Shown in pieces: positions 12,039-38,360 of a stretch of 64,000 bases of DNA. The position numbers and the translations under genes were made by a program. The DNA is from Lachnospiraceae bacterium (GTDB lineage Bacteria > Bacillota > Clostridia > Lachnospirales > Lachnospiraceae), in contig JAAWEL010000089.1 of NCBI GenBank assembly GCA_022794255.1, forward strand, positions 24,757-88,756, given 5' to 3'. The notes under the pieces were generated by a model that had not been told where the DNA came from, ran no database searches, and was given only the letters and a program-made list of their open reading frames with translations. Position 1 is the first letter of the stretch. Each line of letters begins with the position of its first letter.

Positions 12039-12485
12039 TTAGCTGGCACCCCCCCCCACGACTGCCCGGGCTGGTACATCCTTTATGACTACAGCATTTG
12101 CTCCTACAATTACATCATCACCAATTACGATCGGACCAAGAATTTTTGCTCCTGTTCCTACATGAACCCGGTCTCCAATAACTGGCACAATACTGCGAAT
12201 ACTGTCATATTCCGGAATTGCTTTATTGCTTTTTCCTGCCCCTCCTCCAATCGTAACATTGGTTCCAATCATACAGTCATTTCCAATTTTTGCTTCGCTG
12301 TGAATCACCAGACCAATCCCTTTATATCCGAATTCTGTTCCTCTTCCAATTGTACAAGTATATGGAACATACGAATTGTGAATGAAATAAATCCAGCTTC
12401 TGATAATCCAGGCAACCGGTTTCAAATGATGAAGATAGCACCATCGCTCTAATCTATATTTATTGATTGCACTCATTTTACTCAT
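12039..12485 (-). CDS. serine acetyltransferase-like hexapeptide acetyltransferase, C-terminus frameshifted in a G9 tract
   Basis: Left-handed beta-helix repeats IGNDCMIGTNVTIGGGAG...VGTGAKILGPIVIGDDVIVGANAVV; ends AVVGGGAS* where one G fewer gives VGGVPAKILR... Confidence 0.85.
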   Translation of the reverse strand: MSKMSAINKYRLERWCYLHHLKPVAWIIRSWIYFIHNSYVPYTCTIGRGTEFGYKGIGLVIHSEAKIGNDCMIGTNVTIGGGAGKSNKAIPEYDSIRSIVPVIGDRVHVGTGAKILGPIVIGDDVIVGANAVVIKDVPARAVVGGGAS

Positions 12486-28349: not shown

Positions 28350-30195
28350 CTGTATAACGGTCTATAAGATAGTATCCATTTTCTTGTAACTGATGTATAA
28401 AATACTGATAAGCAGTAGCTTCATCTTCAAATTGTTTGAATTTTTTTTGGAATATATGTTTGTCAGATGGATTAATAACTATAAAATCAGAAGCATATAT
28501 ATCATCCTCATCTGCTATAGAAATATCAATTAATTCATTATGGTTTGATAGCTGTGTTGTATACCGGTAATATACAGCAACCGATGATTCTTTAGGTATC
28601 CTATTTAGCACTTCCCGCATTTCTTCATATTTACTATGGTTAAGTACATAATCATTATAATATCTTTCAAATCTGGGGATTATTTTCTTATAAAATGACC
28701 AGACCGAAATTATGCACATTACTACTATGATAGCCCGTGAAAAAACAGCATGATTATGCTTTTTTAAAGAAACAGCCACATCGTCATAATTTATAATTGC
28801 TAAATACATAATTAATATTGCTGTTCCAAAATTATACTGATAATACAGACTATGCTGAGAAGGATTATAGGTCATTAAATTGATTGCAATACAGGGAAAA
28901 AAGAGAATAAATCTTTCAAATCGTCTGGTCAACACGGGCATACACGCTACCGGTCCTATTAAATAAAAGATATAGTTTATCCTGTCCTTACAGCTGCATT
29001 CATATATTAATTTCATTGGTAAAAGCATTATGGTTTTGATTATTTTTGCTATAGAAGCTTTTTCTCCATATGCTAAATTAGCATAGCGGAATGACATAGC
29101 CCCCTCTCCGAACAAAGACAAATAACATAGTGCTCCTCCAAAATAGATACATGCCATAAGCAGCAGGTATAGGTTCTTCTTTAACATTAACCAAGAGTCA
29201 TGATAAATGATACTTGAAAACATCATCCATATGGAAATACAGATAACATAGATTGGGGCATCTTCTTTAACCATACATACCAAGAACCCAAAAATGAATA
29301 TTCCTGTAGTATTTTGTTCTTCAATACAATACAACATCCAGCATATAAACAAAGCCAGAAAACAATTCTCATGAAAGTCAAATCCAATTCCACCTATCAA
29401 GAGAGGATTAATACAAAATGCCAAGCATAAAAAAAATGCTTCCACCTTTGTGGCCACATGACGGATTATAATTAAATACAAAGGAACCATGGAAGATGCA
29501 ACTATTACACTCTGCAATATTTGTAATGTTATCGGTGACGGAAACAAATGATAAACTGGCAAAAGCAAATAGTAAACTGGTGATATATGAATGCTGAAAT
29601 GCGATGTCAGCTCATTTCTCGCAAGCGTAGTTGCCATCTTTCCAGTTTTGTCTGCCCAATGGTACATCTGAGAAAACCAGCCAAGGTCTAGAGTATGTGT
29701 ATTATAGGTCAACACCCGCAAAACAGACCACATCGAAAGAAACACTGAAAGTGAAATGCATAGGAAAATTGGTATTAAAAAATCCTTCCGGATTATTTTT
29801 AAAGTACCTTTTCTTAATATATTAGAAACATCTTCATTCTGCCCGATTATAGCATACATTAATATATATCCAAAAACAATCAAACATGTAACCGTAAAAT
29901 ATGTACTTTTTGTATAAAAGGCAGATAATCCTCCCAAAAAAATAAAAAGAACTGTAAATAACAGCTTTTCTGCTTTGTAAAATGTTGGTATCCTCTTTTC
30001 GATATATAATAGCGCCATATATGCTGCTATTATATATATTACTCCCACAAGGTTAATATCCGATATTATATTTGTACCTTCTAAGCCTCTATTTTTAACT
30101 GGAATCATGCAATATATAACGACAGCTCCAAACATCCAGGCAACTAAGAATCTTAATATTAACCCTATTCTATTTTTTTGAATATAATTAATCAT
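28324..30195 (-). CDS. DUF2079-like polytopic membrane protein (possible GT-C enzyme)
   Basis: GIGFDFHENCFLALFICWMLY...KEDAPIYV and many TM helices. Confidence 0.75.
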   Translation of the reverse strand: MINYIQKNRIGLILRFLVAWMFGAVVIYCMIPVKNRGLEGTNIISDINLVGVIYIIAAYMALLYIEKRIPTFYKAEKLLFTVLFIFLGGLSAFYTKSTYFTVTCLIVFGYILMYAIIGQNEDVSNILRKGTLKIIRKDFLIPIFLCISLSVFLSMWSVLRVLTYNTHTLDLGWFSQMYHWADKTGKMATTLARNELTSHFSIHISPVYYLLLPVYHLFPSPITLQILQSVIVASSMVPLYLIIIRHVATKVEAFFLCLAFCINPLLIGGIGFDFHENCFLALFICWMLYCIEEQNTTGIFIFGFLVCMVKEDAPIYVICISIWMMFSSIIYHDSWLMLKKNLYLLLMACIYFGGALCYLSLFGEGAMSFRYANLAYGEKASIAKIIKTIMLLPMKLIYECSCKDRINYIFYLIGPVACMPVLTRRFERFILFFPCIAINLMTYNPSQHSLYYQYNFGTAILIMYLAIINYDDVAVSLKKHNHAVFSRAIIVVMCIISVWSFYKKIIPRFERYYNDYVLNHSKYEEMREVLNRIPKESSVAVYYRYTTQLSNHNELIDISIADEDDIYASDFIVINPSDKHIFQKKFKQFEDEATAYQYFIHQLQENGYYLIDRYTDEVEIYGR

Positions 30196-30274: not shown

Positions 30275-31993
30275 TTATAAATATAATTTATATATAGCTA
30301 AAAGATTTACTACCTCCAGCTTGCCAAATGCATTTCCCTCTTGAAATAATTGCATTAAATCGTCTTTCATTTTATTGTCCATTACTCTATTTATATTATC
30401 AGCATAATAATTGTCGAGATAACTTCTCAGACTTTCACTATTACGATACCATGTATTTACAGGATTCATCTCCTGTTTTCTATATAACTGATAATTAATT
30501 TTTGCTATTCTCAACACCTTATTTAAAAATCTCTTTGCATAATCTTCAGCATTAAATACCCCTCGCCCTATCTTTTGGGCTAGTTTTACGTCATCATTTA
30601 CTGGAGATCCTGTATGCTGCCAGATATATTGTGTTGATTTTGGATATTTTACAGTCATCCATTTTTTTACATAACCATAATTTGCTCTCCACCTCAATGG
30701 AACTTTGTATATAAAATCCAGGTAGTCAACATCTATAAATGGTGAGGATACCTCTACTTCCTGCTGTCTTACCAATGCACTGAGAAGATACATATTTGCA
30801 CTATGCTCATATAAATTCATCTGTTCATAATTCTCATATTGTTCCATGTTCTGCTCAGATATATTTAATTTGAATAGGTGTGTTCTCAGATCCCTATCAT
30901 AATACCCGGGAGCAGTATGATAATCAGCACTCTCTATCCAATATGCATTCTGCAATTCTCCCAATAATCCGGTACACATACATCCAAGATTTTTGTTTCT
31001 TGCAGCATCTAGTGCTTTTAGTGCCCCAGTACAGACAATATAGTCTACCTGTCCGCCAAATAGCTCAACTTTACGTTCCCCATCCTCAAAAACACTTCCA
31101 TCCATCGGAATAAACAGATAGCTATTTCCCAAATCCTCAGCAATTTGTTTCGACACAGTATGATCCAAATTTCCCTCAACACAATAACAGATGTTCAAAA
31201 CATCTTTATATCCAAGGTCATGTGCTACCCATGTAGCCATACGACTGTCGAGCCCCCCTGACAAATCACATTCACACTGGTATCCATATTCCACGTTTTT
31301 TCTGAAAATTCGATCCACTGCCTGACGAAATAGCCGGTCGCCTTCATTAATACATTCTTCTAAAGAAAAGGAATGTTCTGGTATATTCCTAAACATATGA
31401 TAAAACTCATTGCGAAGTATCTTGTTTGCATAAACCAATCTTTGTCCCGCAGCCAGCCGATATACACCATTAAAGGGGGTTTTCCCAAATAATATTGACC
31501 CTGTAATCAACAACTCATAATGGGCCTCTCTACATGGTTCTAATTTTTTTCCTATATTCTTATAATAATTACGGAGGAAGCTGCAATGGCTTGTTATTAT
31601 AATTCTTCTATCCATCTCTGTATAATAAACTGTCCGCTCTCCAGAATGGTTGGTAAATGCAATTATCTTATCATTCTTTTTATACAGAACAACTCCGCAG
31701 AAACTGCCCCGGAGCGAATCCATAAAATAATCTTCGTTTTTTTTCAAAAGATTTTCAAATGTATGTTTCCAATCTTTATCGAAACGGGAACAAAGTTCTT
31801 GCTTATTGAATACAACACCATCTAATAATACAATCTTTTCATTATCTTCAAAAAACAATTTATCATCTTTAAACTTATTCATCGGATTATATAAGAAAAT
31901 ATATTCTTTATATATAATTGATTTACAATTTCCCATCCATCCAATGTCATTATTATCATTTATCGTATTTTTAATAACAATCCATCCAAACAT
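30275..31993 (-). CDS. asparagine synthetase-like protein, Cys2 nucleophile absent
   Basis: CDLSGGLDSRMATWVA PP-loop; N-term MFGWIVIKN instead of MCGI. Confidence 0.85.
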   Translation of the reverse strand: MFGWIVIKNTINDNNDIGWMGNCKSIIYKEYIFLYNPMNKFKDDKLFFEDNEKIVLLDGVVFNKQELCSRFDKDWKHTFENLLKKNEDYFMDSLRGSFCGVVLYKKNDKIIAFTNHSGERTVYYTEMDRRIIITSHCSFLRNYYKNIGKKLEPCREAHYELLITGSILFGKTPFNGVYRLAAGQRLVYANKILRNEFYHMFRNIPEHSFSLEECINEGDRLFRQAVDRIFRKNVEYGYQCECDLSGGLDSRMATWVAHDLGYKDVLNICYCVEGNLDHTVSKQIAEDLGNSYLFIPMDGSVFEDGERKVELFGGQVDYIVCTGALKALDAARNKNLGCMCTGLLGELQNAYWIESADYHTAPGYYDRDLRTHLFKLNISEQNMEQYENYEQMNLYEHSANMYLLSALVRQQEVEVSSPFIDVDYLDFIYKVPLRWRANYGYVKKWMTVKYPKSTQYIWQHTGSPVNDDVKLAQKIGRGVFNAEDYAKRFLNKVLRIAKINYQLYRKQEMNPVNTWYRNSESLRSYLDNYYADNINRVMDNKMKDDLMQLFQEGNAFGKLEVVNLLAIYKLYL

Positions 31994-32013: not shown

Positions 32014-32586
32014 TTATTCGTCAATATATTTTTCTATCCCTTCAATCCAGACTGCATACCCATTCCCATTTAAATGAACACCATCTGTTGAATATAATTC
32101 TGTTATTATTGCACCATCTTCCTCAAATAAGTCATGTAAATCAATATATGTAACTGCCTCATATTCATTACAGATTTTCTGATAGCTTGCATTTAGCACT
32201 TCTACCTTTTCATCTGGAACATTTGCTGCCGGAAAAACACTTATTATATATATTTTGCAGTCCTTTCTACTTCCTGAAAGTATAGCGTCAATCGTTTTTT
32301 TCAGATATAACATTGTATCATCACCTGGTACATTCCGGCCCAGATCATTAATTCCTATATTAATAAATATTTTACCTGGATGATGGCTTAAGACTTCATT
32401 GATCCTGTGATAAATACCCTCTGCTGTATCTGATCCGATTCCACGGTTAATAACGGTTCCTTTATCCGGAAAAAATTCTTCAAATCTCCCGCCTAATGTA
32501 ATACTGTCGCCGACAAATGCTATTTCCGCATCTCCTATTTTACTGTTACTAAACATACTAACGTATGCATCATACTGGGGATTCAT
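32014..32586 (-). CDS. SGNH/GDSL hydrolase; true start may be upstream at 32705 across a G9 tract
   Basis: EIAFVGDSITLGGRFEE...INIGINDLG...STDGVHLNGNGY. Confidence 0.88.
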   Translation of the reverse strand: MNPQYDAYVSMFSNSKIGDAEIAFVGDSITLGGRFEEFFPDKGTVINRGIGSDTAEGIYHRINEVLSHHPGKIFINIGINDLGRNVPGDDTMLYLKKTIDAILSGSRKDCKIYIISVFPAANVPDEKVEVLNASYQKICNEYEAVTYIDLHDLFEEDGAIITELYSTDGVHLNGNGYAVWIEGIEKYIDE

Positions 32587-32679
32587 TGAATAATTATATT
32601 CCCCCCCCCACCCACTTCAACAATTTCTTTATTTTTATGGTGATCTAATAGCGAAAAAATTAAAAACAATAAGCTGATT

Positions 32680-33285
32680 TTAATAATCCAAGCACTCTTT
32701 TTCAATCATCTCACCATCCAATCGTTTTATTAATTTCGCAGGATTTCCTGCAATAATACAATTTCCATCCGGATAACTATGGGTCACTACAGCTCCAGCG
32801 CCAACAATCGTATGATCCCCCAGTATAACTCCTGGTAATATTACAGAGTTCATTCCGATCCAACAGGATTGTCCCAAAACCACAGCCTTCCCTTCCTGAT
32901 GTTTATCCAAATTGTAAATATTATGGTTTGTAGTAATAATCCCTACATTTCTTGCTATCCTGGTTCCTTTTCCAATAACAATATGAGCATTCAAGGTCTG
33001 AAAATAATTGCCAGTTCCCATAAAATTATTCAAATCATCTACATCAAACAGGATATTATTCCCGTATGAACTATATGGCGAAACAGGCCATTTTACTGAT
33101 TTATTCGTCTGAAACAACATACGGTGCAGAATATCATTAGCTGCCCACTTCCATCCTTCACTGTTTATCTTTTTAAACCAATGTCCTTTTAAATACTGGC
33201 TGTCATAATATAACCAACGAAACATTTGTACAAAAGTCCATGTGAATAAGATAGATGGGATTTTTCTTAATTTTTTCATAATCAA
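32680..33285 (-). CDS. hexapeptide-repeat acyltransferase
   Basis: QSCWIGMNSVILPGVILGDHTIVGAGAVVTHSYPDGNCIIAGNPAKLIKRL. Confidence 0.92.
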   Translation of the reverse strand: MIMKKLRKIPSILFTWTFVQMFRWLYYDSQYLKGHWFKKINSEGWKWAANDILHRMLFQTNKSVKWPVSPYSSYGNNILFDVDDLNNFMGTGNYFQTLNAHIVIGKGTRIARNVGIITTNHNIYNLDKHQEGKAVVLGQSCWIGMNSVILPGVILGDHTIVGAGAVVTHSYPDGNCIIAGNPAKLIKRLDGEMIEKECLDY

Positions 33286-33323: not shown

Positions 33324-34562
33324 TCAAGGTTCAGCAAAAGATGTATCCTGCATTTTTGTTATACTTAAATGCAGATAAAAAGTAGCCATAGCTGCTGCTA
33401 TTATTTCAACCAATACAGTCGCATAGGCGGCTCCATACATGCCAAATTTGATAATCAACAAATAATTGAATACCACCTCTGAGACAATCTGTATCGCACT
33501 AATAAACAGATTGTAATGTACTTTCTTTAGCCCGGCAAGAATGTTGACACTCAGATCCCGGAAAGTTCCTGTCAAAAAAAATCCAACCAGATGAATTCTG
33601 AATAAACCTACTGCCTCTATATACTGATCTCCAGAAATCAGAAGAATAATCACTTTAGAAAAAATAAATAGTATGAAAGCAATCGAAAAATTAACCATAC
33701 CTGAAAAAAAATAGAGCTTTTTTACATTGGATTTAAGCCATCTCTTTTCTCTGTTATGGCCCACAATATCTGGCAAAAAGCACATAATAATGCTACTGGG
33801 GATAAACATCAGCGCATGTGGTATCATAGTGGATACCTTGTATATTGCTATTTCTTCTGTATTACGTATCAACTGGGCAATCATTGTCACATCAATTAGG
33901 TATAAAGATCTGTTGAATGCGGAACTGACTCCTGTAAAAATCGTATAATTCCATAATTCCGTAATTTGTTTAAGCTCTAACATACTTGCTGTCAGAAGAT
34001 TCTTTAGGTCCTGTCGCATAACACAAATGATACTTGCCAATGATAAAACTCTTGCACAATATTTTCCGCCGATCACTCCCGGAACCCCCCAGCAGGCTCC
34101 TACACAAGTGGCAACTGCTATCAGGACTGTATTTATATTAGTGATTTTTGCGTAGGTTTTTATCCGATTACTGCATCTCAGCATAATAGAAAAAATATTA
34201 ATCAAATATTCAATAATCAGGACAGGCAAATATATTTTTATATATAAGCCAGAATTTTCTATTACCAGCTCTGTAATATGGATATAAAAATAGAAAACAG
34301 CAATAATAACAATGTTAATAATTAATCCTATATTGAGACAATATTTATAATATCTATATGCCTCTCCTTTTCCCTTATTTTCCGCCCCAAACTGAAAAGC
34401 TCCTGAATCCAATCCAAGTCCGGCAATCAATGATGCATAAGAATATATATTTAGAATATATCCCCACATTCCAAAATCAGATCGGGTTAAAATACGAGTT
34501 ATAACCATATTGCTGATCATAACCACGATTTTGTTAATCACATTCGCACTTAACAACTGCAA
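33324..34562 (-). CDS. polysaccharide flippase (Wzx-like); start uncertain
   Basis: LSANVINKIVVMISNMVITRILTRSDFGMWGYI; polytopic. Confidence 0.85.
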   Translation of the reverse strand: MQLLSANVINKIVVMISNMVITRILTRSDFGMWGYILNIYSYASLIAGLGLDSGAFQFGAENKGKGEAYRYYKYCLNIGLIINIVIIAVFYFYIHITELVIENSGLYIKIYLPVLIIEYLINIFSIMLRCSNRIKTYAKITNINTVLIAVATCVGACWGVPGVIGGKYCARVLSLASIICVMRQDLKNLLTASMLELKQITELWNYTIFTGVSSAFNRSLYLIDVTMIAQLIRNTEEIAIYKVSTMIPHALMFIPSSIIMCFLPDIVGHNREKRWLKSNVKKLYFFSGMVNFSIAFILFIFSKVIILLISGDQYIEAVGLFRIHLVGFFLTGTFRDLSVNILAGLKKVHYNLFISAIQIVSEVVFNYLLIIKFGMYGAAYATVLVEIIAAAMATFYLHLSITKMQDTSFAEP

Positions 34563-34689: not shown

Positions 34690-35841
34690 TTAATTACTTA
34701 AAATTCTCTCAAATTCAGTTTTTATATTTTCCTCCAAAAACAGACACATGACCTTTTCATAGCCCATTTTTAAACAAATGCGTTCTTCAACCGACATTTC
34801 CAAAGCTTTTCTAACTCCTAATGAAAAATCCTCTTTCGTTTCCACCGTATTAAATCCATCAATCGATAGATAATTGGAACTGCAATTCGCAACAATGGGA
34901 AGCAAGTATTTCATATAACGGATTATCTTTCTTGTATATCCATAACGGATATTATTCTTTTTATTAAATTCTTTCTGGGTCATTGGAGCAAGTGCTACAG
35001 AAGCCTTGCATAGAATCTTCTCAAATTCTATTTCTGTCATACTTCCACAATAAATCACATTATCATGTGATTTATTGTGGAATGGCCCTATAACAAAAAA
35101 ATCTGTTTCCGGATTGTTCCTTGCAGCATATTCAATATATTCAAAATTAACAAATGAAACTCCAAGATAAACAGCAGCTTTTCTCATTCCGATTGGTATC
35201 ATCTCAGGAGTGAAATTTTTCATGAAATCAATCTCCTCTTTTTTGCAAAAAGGATTTCTCAAAATGCTTAATTTTTCCGGAGAAATACCATTTTTTAGAT
35301 AGTATTCTATCATGCACTCATCAACACACAGCACATGATCCGAAATATCAATCATTTTCTTTTCATACTCAATGGTATTACTTAAGGTGGAAAAAGTTCC
35401 CATTATATCAGATATCCGAAAAATGATTTTTGCATTTGGATAATCTTCACGAATATTCTCTGCATACTGGCAATTATTTCCTTCTACAAGAATTACCTGG
35501 TATTGATCCTGTAACTTTTTTCTAAGCCATTTCCAGGAGGGCCAATATTTATTTCCTAATTTCATGTGAAAAAGCTTCGCTATTCTTGCCGGAATAAGAA
35601 CTGGCACAGCAAAATTTCTAATCGTGATATCATTCTTTCTCTCTTCAATTTCTTTACACAGATCAAAAAAATTGCGCGGGTTTTCACGGTCATTTCTATT
35701 TACAAGCCAGCTGATGCTTATAGGGTTTGTCAGCCAGTCCACATCATAGGATAATTCGCTTAAAAATCTGATAAAATAATGGAAACCGCCAACTCTTTTA
35801 CAATTCTTTACATGGTATGTCATTACCAGTGCTTTTTTCAT
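34690..35841 (-). CDS. glycosyltransferase (GT-B-like)
   Basis: MKKALVMTYHVKNCKRVGGFHYFIRFLSELSY (ORF track starts at 35853; MKKAL more plausible). Confidence 0.75.
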   Translation of the reverse strand: MKKALVMTYHVKNCKRVGGFHYFIRFLSELSYDVDWLTNPISISWLVNRNDRENPRNFFDLCKEIEERKNDITIRNFAVPVLIPARIAKLFHMKLGNKYWPSWKWLRKKLQDQYQVILVEGNNCQYAENIREDYPNAKIIFRISDIMGTFSTLSNTIEYEKKMIDISDHVLCVDECMIEYYLKNGISPEKLSILRNPFCKKEEIDFMKNFTPEMIPIGMRKAAVYLGVSFVNFEYIEYAARNNPETDFFVIGPFHNKSHDNVIYCGSMTEIEFEKILCKASVALAPMTQKEFNKKNNIRYGYTRKIIRYMKYLLPIVANCSSNYLSIDGFNTVETKEDFSLGVRKALEMSVEERICLKMGYEKVMCLFLEENIKTEFERILSN

Positions 35842-37276
35842 CAATGCCTGCACCTGCCTTTATCTTAAATCTCTCTGTATCGGTATTTCCTGCTGCCGAC
35901 CGGGCTGTTATAATCTTATACCAGTTATCAAAATATATTAAAGCATTATATAACCCGCCAAAAGTAAGCATATAATAATATAAATGTTCCATCTGATACG
36001 CAATAATATATACTGACATTGATAATGTCAAATAATTATATATCATCCGTTTTACTGTCGACTGTGTTCTTCTTGACCGAAAATCCATCGCAACAAAATA
36101 CTTTATTACAGGAATGTAAAGCAATGGTCCCAATATACCAAAATACTGGATAGAACCAATCATCGGTGGGGTCCATACGGATGCTCCTGGAATTATTTTT
36201 CCTAAGTAATTTACGATTTCTAGCGGATGATACAGCCCTGTCAACAGAAAGCTGTTGTTAAAAAGACGTTTGATAAAAACCATAGGGCCCTGCTGATAAT
36301 TATCAGCTATATATGCTCCTATGGCTGTAAGCGCAGGTCCTGCAAAATATATCTGAAATTTCCGTGCAATTCTTATGCCTGTATTTTCTCCATAAAAACA
36401 GTAAACTACAGTCATAATCGTCAAAATCATGAGAATCAAATATATGATTCGTTTTTCCAGCTTTGTTCTTAAACTATATAATATTTCTAGCATACACACT
36501 CCACCTGCCAGAATTGATAGGATTCTGCGATCTGATACTATAAGAATATTAAGAATACTAATCAGAATTGCTAAACCATATCGGATCTTTGTTTTTCTTT
36601 TAAGAGCAATGCTGACAAGCGTAATTACCACTATAGGTTTAGCAAATACCTCAAGCATAATAAACAGATAATAAGCTGGTCCTCCAAATGATATGCTTTG
36701 TTTTACAACTGCCTTGTTTTTTAATAAAAACCTAAATCTCAAAGCAATCGTTGGGTTTTTCAATAAAATAAAAATACTGATTATTACCGCAATGATCGCA
36801 AATACTAAGATAACAGAATTATTTTCTTGATATTTTTGCGTTATCGTATATGCTTTCCTTGCTTTCCTGGTATAATATGAAAAAATCCCAAACACATACA
36901 AATTCTCAAAGCACATCAGCAATATGGCTTCAGGATAATAATTGATATATAGATTTTCTGGAACACCGCTATAAAAATTTCCACACGCACAAATAACAGG
37001 CAGCAAACACATTCGAAATCCATAAGCCAATACAAATAAGGTACTGCCTATACCTTTTAAATTATATTTCCGGATAAAGAGAGTCACTGCCATCATGTAT
37101 ACCATTGGAAGAATTGCTGTAATTCGATATTTTGAGTCATAAGCTGCCCCAATTAAAAAAACAAACGAAAAACATCCCATAGCATACATAGCTATACGGA
37201 TAGTATTTTCTTTTATGTACCGATTCCGTTCAACGATCCATTCTTCCCTAATATTTCTTCCATTTGTGTTATTCAT
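35798..37276 (-). CDS. O-antigen polymerase-like membrane protein (Wzy-like)
   Basis: 492 aa polytopic protein in the Wzy position. Confidence 0.7.
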   Translation of the reverse strand: MNNTNGRNIREEWIVERNRYIKENTIRIAMYAMGCFSFVFLIGAAYDSKYRITAILPMVYMMAVTLFIRKYNLKGIGSTLFVLAYGFRMCLLPVICACGNFYSGVPENLYINYYPEAILLMCFENLYVFGIFSYYTRKARKAYTITQKYQENNSVILVFAIIAVIISIFILLKNPTIALRFRFLLKNKAVVKQSISFGGPAYYLFIMLEVFAKPIVVITLVSIALKRKTKIRYGLAILISILNILIVSDRRILSILAGGVCMLEILYSLRTKLEKRIIYLILMILTIMTVVYCFYGENTGIRIARKFQIYFAGPALTAIGAYIADNYQQGPMVFIKRLFNNSFLLTGLYHPLEIVNYLGKIIPGASVWTPPMIGSIQYFGILGPLLYIPVIKYFVAMDFRSRRTQSTVKRMIYNYLTLSMSVYIIAYQMEHLYYYMLTFGGLYNALIYFDNWYKIITARSAAGNTDTERFKIKAGAGIDEKSTGNDIPCKEL

Positions 37277-37283
37277 GTATCAT

Positions 37284-38360
37284 CTATTCCCAACTTTTAA
37301 TATATTGGATCATGTCCTGACGCAAATCTTCTTTACTATATGCTTTATTAAATGTATCCACTGCACCTTGCTGGTACTTTTTCTTCCTATTGCTGCTGAA
37401 TGCAAGTTTTACAAGGGCCTTTCCCATCTTGTGATAGTTTTTGTTATCAATTAAGAATCCATTATACTTATTTTTAACACTATAAGGAATCGCACTGTTA
37501 TTGAAACATATTACAGGTACACCCCTTCCCATCGCCTCCATAATGACAAGCCCATATCCTTCTAAAAGAGATGGGTACAAAAATATTTCCGCATGTGAAT
37601 AATAATCATCCAATCGTTCATCATCTACACGTCCCAAAAAAGAGACTGCATTTTCCAAATGCAGCTTTTTAATTATCCTATTTAATTTTTTATAGTACCT
37701 GTCACTTTCTTTATAGTTTCCTATAATTAAGTATTTATATTCTTTATCTTTTTCATATAAATAGCGAAACGCTTTTATTCCATAATCCAACCCTTTCCTG
37801 TATTGAATATTTCCAACAAACAATACTTGCTTACTGTCAAGGGAACTGACTTTATACTTTTTCTTTTCTAACGCTGTCCTTAAAAAGATAATGTTAAATA
37901 TTTTGTGATGTATTCTTAGCTGTTCAGCCACATACTGATTCGGTATCACTAATTCATCCGCTAAATGCAGCATTTTCAGTTCTAAATATTTATGTATCTG
38001 AAATTGTAATCCAGAATGATTCATATAATTATTATGATGATGCATCATAATAATGCGAAGATTTGGGTATCGTCTTTTAATCTCTTGATTATTTATAAAA
38101 AGGAATCGAGTATACAACCGTGAATTTAAAATAAGAATATCAGCGTTAAAAATTCTGTCCAAATTATCTCTGTAAATTTTTGAAAAGGAAAGAAATGATT
38201 TGCTCTTCCCATGTAATAATGTCTGATCATCAATTAAAGTAATATTATTATGGATCTCTTTTATCATTCCGTAAAAAGATTCATCATATGCAGCTCCCCC
38301 TGTCTTATCATTGAGGGATGTTGTTAAATAATTTATTTTCATTTCATGTTCCTTTTTCAT
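37284..38360 (-). CDS. glycosyltransferase family 4
   Basis: FVGNIQYRKGLDYGIKAF...FLYPSLLEGYGLVIMEAMGRGVPVI. Confidence 0.92.
   Translation of the reverse strand: MKKEHEMKINYLTTSLNDKTGGAAYDESFYGMIKEIHNNITLIDDQTLLHGKSKSFLSFSKIYRDNLDRIFNADILILNSRLYTRFLFINNQEIKRRYPNLRIIMMHHHNNYMNHSGLQFQIHKYLELKMLHLADELVIPNQYVAEQLRIHHKIFNIIFLRTALEKKKYKVSSLDSKQVLFVGNIQYRKGLDYGIKAFRYLYEKDKEYKYLIIGNYKESDRYYKKLNRIIKKLHLENAVSFLGRVDDERLDDYYSHAEIFLYPSLLEGYGLVIMEAMGRGVPVICFNNSAIPYSVKNKYNGFLIDNKNYHKMGKALVKLAFSSNRKKKYQQGAVDTFNKAYSKEDLRQDMIQYIKSWE

Follow-up and report, generated by a model that had tools for sequence, protein, structure and literature searches.

A poly-G tract as a candidate phase-variation switch in a putative membrane-anchored O-acetylesterase gene of a Lachnospiraceae bacterium

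In a stretch of 64,000 nucleotides from a Lachnospiraceae bacterium (the window), the end of a small signal-anchor reading frame overlaps the start of a GDSL-type hydrolase gene, and a run of nine guanines lies shortly before the overlap. The question is whether these are two coding sequences or the two parts of one gene, and, if they belong together, what the run of guanines does to the protein. The features of the locus are collected in Table 1.

Table 1. Features of the esterase locus and its surroundings, in window coordinates.
Feature	Position	Strand	Remarks
G9 tract	32601..32609	-	C9 on the plus strand; in the linker that joins membrane anchor to catalytic domain
Signal-anchor ORF	32583..32705	-	TTG start, 40 aa at G9; 5' part of the esterase gene
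Shine-Dalgarno-like GGATGGTGA	32711..32719	-	5 nt 5' of TTG 32705; computed anti-SD duplex -10.9 kcal/mol
ATGA overlap	32583..32586	-	Anchor ORF ends and short GDSL ORF begins here
SGNH/GDSL hydrolase domain, called from the internal ATG	32014..32586	-	190 aa; Pfam PF13472 4e-23, full model
GDSL frame at its full open length	32014..32616	-	200 codons, extends 5' of the tract; includes conserved YxY residues before the ATG
Hexapeptide acetyltransferase, intact	32680..33285	-	Pfam Hexapep; 51% identical to the G303-locus acetyltransferase
Wzx-type polysaccharide flippase	33324..34562	-	Pfam Polysacc_synt; 24% identical to the G303-locus flippase
Asparagine-synthase-like protein, GATase_7 domain	30275..31993	-	Directly 3' of the esterase
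DUF2079 membrane protein	28324..30195	-	Same operon as the esterase
GumK-like glycosyltransferase	34690..35853	-	Same operon as the esterase
Family-4 glycosyltransferase	37284..38360	-	Same operon as the esterase
Second G9 tract of the window	12049..12057	-	Close to the 3' end of an acetyltransferase gene of hexapeptide type (serine-acetyltransferase-like)

The TTG at 32705 has a stop codon immediately 5' of it, and is therefore the sole start upstream of the hydrophobic stretch. As the initial annotation had proposed, it follows a good ribosome-binding site and opens a signal-anchor ORF on the minus strand, which in the G9 state encodes MKKSAWIIKISLLFLIFSLLDHHKNKEIVEVGGGGNIIIQ*, traverses GGGGGGGGG (32601-32609) and is closed by the TGA at 32585-32583. 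With about 14-16 residues, the anchor has a short hydrophobic core (MKKSAWIIKISLLFLIFSLL). The frame of the GDSL part also remains open 5' of the tract (SGWGGEYNYS-MNPQYD...). When the length of the tract was varied in silico, G7 and G10 gave fused proteins of 229 and 230 aa, which agrees with the annotation; G8, G9 and G11 gave no fusion, and translation stopped at 36, 40 and 37 aa. A change of one unit in the tract switches the reading frame of a conserved gene, and it is the fused form that agrees with the homologues. The internal ATG at 32586 is preceded by an AT-rich stretch, and the only Shine-Dalgarno-like sequence near it is the poly-G itself, badly placed at about 14 nt. With no Shine-Dalgarno sequence at a suitable distance from this ATG, the short GDSL form would be fed only by termination and reinitiation at the ATGA.

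Homologues were used to find out which form of the protein is the native one. A protein-only scan of the genome contigs with the fused sequence gave no match; a scan of the named genomes with an alignment as query succeeded; it returned 184 relatives, and the analysis went on with the best 80. In each of the 12 Lachnospiraceae homologues examined (L103-L112, L114, L116) a hydrophobic transmembrane segment stands at the N-terminus, followed by a common junction motif, [YF]-x-Y-x-x-N-x-[QS]-Y. The codons for the Y-x-Y of this motif lie 5' of the internal ATG, with Tyr38 and the preceding aromatic residue standing before Met40, and in the alignment of the fused reading with the family Y38, N41 and Y44 are invariant. 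Met40 itself is absent from all 12, and no homologue examined starts there, so that the family does not begin uniformly at MNPQYD without an anchor. Among the more distant homologues in the best 80 of the 184, 31 of the 40 that could be parsed have a transmembrane or signal-like segment. Because the homologues keep both the anchor and the junction residues upstream of the internal ATG, they support a fusion of anchor and esterase as the native protein, with anchor and catalytic domain probably encoded by one gene. The anchor or signal in most homologues also suggests a substrate outside the cell. Extra glycines in the linker between the anchor and the domain should be tolerated.

The hydrolase part matches the Pfam family Lipase_GDSL_2 over the whole domain (profile positions 1-178 of 178, 83.2 bits as compared to a cut-off of 32.9). 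The SGNH blocks GDSIT, NRGIGSD, IGINDL and DGVH are all present, providing the Ser (GDSI), Gly, Asn (GxND) and Asp-x-x-His of the family, and their key residues are invariant in the alignment of homologues. With the short ORF as query, the closest solved structures were those of PvSAE, the sialic acid acetylesterase of Phocaeicola vulgatus (7pzg/7pzh, 6njc; E about 1e-23), and phmmer comparisons with PvSAE gave 2e-23 and 4e-23 across residues 5-190, again the whole domain. PvSAE is exported by a signal peptide and takes O-acetyl groups off sialic acids (PMC9063846). The match to this enzyme, together with the adjacent intact acetyltransferase, the Wzx-type flippase and the glycosyltransferases of the operon, makes an extracytoplasmic carbohydrate O-acetylesterase the most likely function of the putative enzyme. 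The similarity to PvSAE is distant, at about 30% identity, and an acetyl ester is accordingly to be read as the presumed substrate.

All genes of this surface-polysaccharide operon lie on the minus strand, and the 3' end of the hexapeptide acetyltransferase gene overlaps the anchor ORF by 26 nt. The initial annotation had paired the esterase with the acetyltransferase that carries the second tract of the window, where G9 shifts off the last ~16 codons. This pairing, over a distance of 20 kb, is speculative, the one point in its favour being that both genes are acetyl-related. The adjacent acetyltransferase is the likelier and more natural partner, since it is directly upstream, is intact and has a counterpart in a related locus in another genus.

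It is of importance for the interpretation whether the tract belongs to a special class. The source genome is a 3.42 Mb draft of 90 contigs, 87% complete, with the window on contig C63. Counted over both strands it has 39 runs of G7, 5 of G8, 16 of G9 and none of G10 or longer. The hump at G9 is non-monotonic, 16 observed as compared to about 1 expected from the decay of run lengths. A first-order Markov model expects 48, more than was seen, and the raw count alone is unremarkable; we dropped this expectation as the main significance test since it is too model-dependent. The case for a special class rests on the hump, the location and the effects on reading frames, and not on raw counts. Eleven of the 16 tracts are found on contigs C35, C52 and C63, which make up 5.3% of the genome (binomial 3e-11, with the contigs picked post hoc), and 12 are inside substantial ORFs, the rest being non-coding or 5' of genes. 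Nine tracts split genes. Three of these encode acetyltransferases, two on C52 and the one affected at its C-terminal end at window position 12049, and the other six are a hypothetical transferase on C35, a GtrII-like, a DUF6056-like and one further membrane protein, a LytTR response regulator and the present esterase. In three further genes the frame stays open across the tract; they encode a GT2 protein, a large membrane protein and an AlgX-like SGNH protein. By Pfam assignment, most of the coding tracts interrupt surface-glycan genes or lie within them, some in an ON and others in an OFF frame, and about a dozen, the esterase tract among them, are candidate poly-G switches.

Some of these tracts deserve mention by themselves. 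In the LytTR-type response regulator (L009, C64:112846) the G9 falls between the receiver and the DNA-binding domains, and in the related genome G003 a G9 is found close to the end of an ORF resembling this regulator (L088); a switchable LytTR regulator would alter many genes together. The in-frame tract of the AlgX-like protein (L005:2280-2288, C52:19780) makes this a second tract-bearing gene of SGNH type, and of acetyl handling. A further G9 (L002, C5:10549) is located right at the ribosome-binding site of a membrane-protein ORF of ~620 codons.

Runs of G9 are present in all 24 genomes of the genus, and many in some of them. We examined 44 tracts of at least eight guanines outside the source genome, mainly in the genus relatives G003-G005 and two in other genera. 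They were 8-14 G long, and most lay in ORFs the size of a gene, some of them frame-shifted and others not; in G003-G005 the genes concerned were similar to those of the source genome. The length of the tract differs between species at sites that look orthologous, in a flagellin leader and in a promoter-like spacer. A flagellin-like gene (MIIQHNIAAI) has in its 5' leader a G9 in the source genome (L010, C64:129588) and a G11 in G005 (L102, C212:52766); the 3' end of the latter forms one arm of a perfect hairpin (GGGGTAGAAC...GTTCTACCCC), and it is possible that the control of flagellin depends on the length of the leader tract. In the other case the tract lies in the 15-nt spacer between TTGACA and TAAAAT upstream of a MacA/HlyD-like membrane fusion protein, with G9 in the source genome (L012:1994-2002, C90:23893) and G10 in G004 (L097:2074), and is a candidate for promoter-spacer contingency. 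Taking the source genome and the loci of the relatives together, the sequence after the tract begins with TA in 38 of 60 tracts of at least G8, and the base before it is T or C in most.

No homologue of the esterase was found in the 23 other genomes of the genus that were searched, and hence the tract itself has no orthologue among them. A matching polysaccharide locus with flippase, acetyltransferase and esterase is present in another genus (G303, CAOKOL010000022.1). The esterase of that locus has an in-frame G9 of its own, near the DxxH block and in a different position from the tract described here. The G303 genome has 16 tracts of 9-12 G, as compared to 0, 1, 0 and 0 runs of nine in four genomes with tract-free esterases. 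It appears that the esterase family has gained tracts independently in tract-rich genomes.

We consider it probable that the esterase gene is a contingency locus, in which slipped-strand mispairing makes a membrane-anchored SGNH carbohydrate O-acetylesterase phase-variable, and that it was sequenced in the OFF state. Mispairing at the poly-G of the glycine-rich linker would alter the tract by one G. At G7, G10 or G13 a full-length anchored esterase would be made (ON), and at other lengths translation would end 36-40 codons in (OFF), as predicted for the sequenced G9. The anchored enzyme would face outward and probably remove acetyl groups like those that the neighbouring hexapeptide acetyltransferase attaches. 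In the OFF state a cytosolic remnant could be formed only through weak reinitiation at the ATGA, as a by-product and not a purpose. Other surface-glycan genes with tracts, in this genome and in the genus, support switching by slippage. A far wider scheme can be imagined, a genus-wide poly-G system that switches O-acetyltransferases, glycosyltransferase-like membrane proteins and an anchored de-acetylase independently, giving each cell its own acetylation and glycan pattern, and in which an ATGA-coupled OFF state sends the esterase to the cytosol as a localisation switch; this we regard as doubtful.

Another explanation is that the place of the enzyme is toggled and not its presence, with the leader at G9, perhaps also at G8, stopping on the ATG or shortly before it, so that a functional cytosolic esterase arises by reinitiation. 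The stop of the leader and the start of the short ORF do overlap, at G8 the leader stop is 7 nt before the ATG, and the short form holds the complete Pfam domain with all catalytic blocks. The poor ribosome-binding context of the ATG, the lack of conservation of Met40 in the homologues examined, none of which starts there, and the outside substrate implied by the anchor or signal of most homologues make this unlikely. The initial annotation had suggested that the length of the tract decides between an anchored and a cytosolic or absent esterase; the setting of the frame in the linker stands, while a working cytosolic form at G9 finds no support in either the Shine-Dalgarno placement or the homologue starts. 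A tract of fixed length could also yield a mixture of anchored and terminated protein from unchanged DNA, by a ribosomal -1 shift or by transcriptional slippage at G9. A -1 shift on the run of guanines gives exactly the fused frame, and GGG GGG re-pairs perfectly, but there is no downstream RNA structure beyond chance at the tract that would stimulate a frameshift (z = +0.22), and other tracts of the source genome need different shifts or are ON. Furthermore, orthologous tracts and tracts of the same class vary in length between species, as slippage of the DNA predicts. Programmed slippage is thus quite improbable.

The OFF assignment itself should be held loosely, since the assembly consensus may misstate tract lengths. 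All 16 tracts of the source genome are called as exactly nine and none as ten or more, as compared to 8-14 in relatives, for a reason that is technical or biological, and the assembly is an incomplete draft. The esterase gene could then be constitutively intact, or stably of another length. Runs of A and T in the same genome also fall steeply, from 235 of length 7 to 43 of length 8 and 4 of length 9 in 463 kb, and only about 3 A10/T10 runs are expected; that none occurs in the genome is no evidence of a cap, and we rejected a general homopolymer cap at nine as unsupported. A mixture of ON and OFF frames is, in addition, what would be expected of real contingency loci, and a wrong length seems to us rather unlikely. 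That the gene is a decaying pseudogene, the hydrolase being disused and the frameshift a fixed loss, is very improbable. It is true that this is one frameshift in one sequenced genome, but both halves are otherwise open and conserved, the catalytic residues are retained, and the frameshift coincides exactly with a tract that belongs to a non-random class.

If phase variation of the esterase is true, the surface glycans of these commensals and their acetyl decorations would vary stochastically from cell to cell, which would bear on strain typing, on resistance to phages and on recognition by the immune system. Many genes of such draft genomes that look broken would then also be switchable and not dead. 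The best-known cases of phase variation through slippage at homopolymers come from Gram-negative pathogens of mucosal surfaces, and the Lachnospiraceae are a dominant family of the gut; in the literature that we searched, with partial coverage, we found no report of homopolymer phase variation in this family.

The esterase can be compared to several known systems. It shares the SGNH hydrolase fold family with PvSAE, an exported enzyme acting on O-acetylated sugars (PMC9063846). PvSAE differs in having a cleaved signal peptide and not an anchor, in having no known tract, and in its block I, which is GNSI in the deposited sequence and GDSI in the esterase; it is a sialic-acid-processing enzyme and, unlike the esterase, not part of a polysaccharide biosynthesis operon. 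The survey by Orsi et al. 2010 (PMC2831843) described homopolymer frameshifts near the 5' end of genes as reversible inactivation, and the esterase tract is of this kind, except that it is poly(G) and the survey stresses poly(A)/(T). In Campylobacter jejuni, poly-G contingency loci such as cgtB and Cj1295, the latter for the flagellin glycan, change frame and alter the glycan through the gain or loss of one G (PMC6437147, PMC3068675). The tracts there are 8-10 long, and as in the present case they are mononucleotide G tracts within surface-glycan genes. The host of the esterase is, unlike C. jejuni, a Gram-positive member of the Lachnospiraceae, and the gene encodes a membrane-anchored hydrolase with the tract in the anchor-domain linker, where variation in length is predicted. 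In Bifidobacterium breve, maximum-depth sequencing demonstrated a replication-slippage switch at G10-G12 tracts of sortase-pilus genes (PMC9187656). The esterase differs in that the genes are glycan genes, the tract is G9 and the switch is a candidate; the two systems have in common a gut Gram-positive commensal and an intragenic G tract whose length sets, or for the esterase is predicted to set, the expression of a surface structure.
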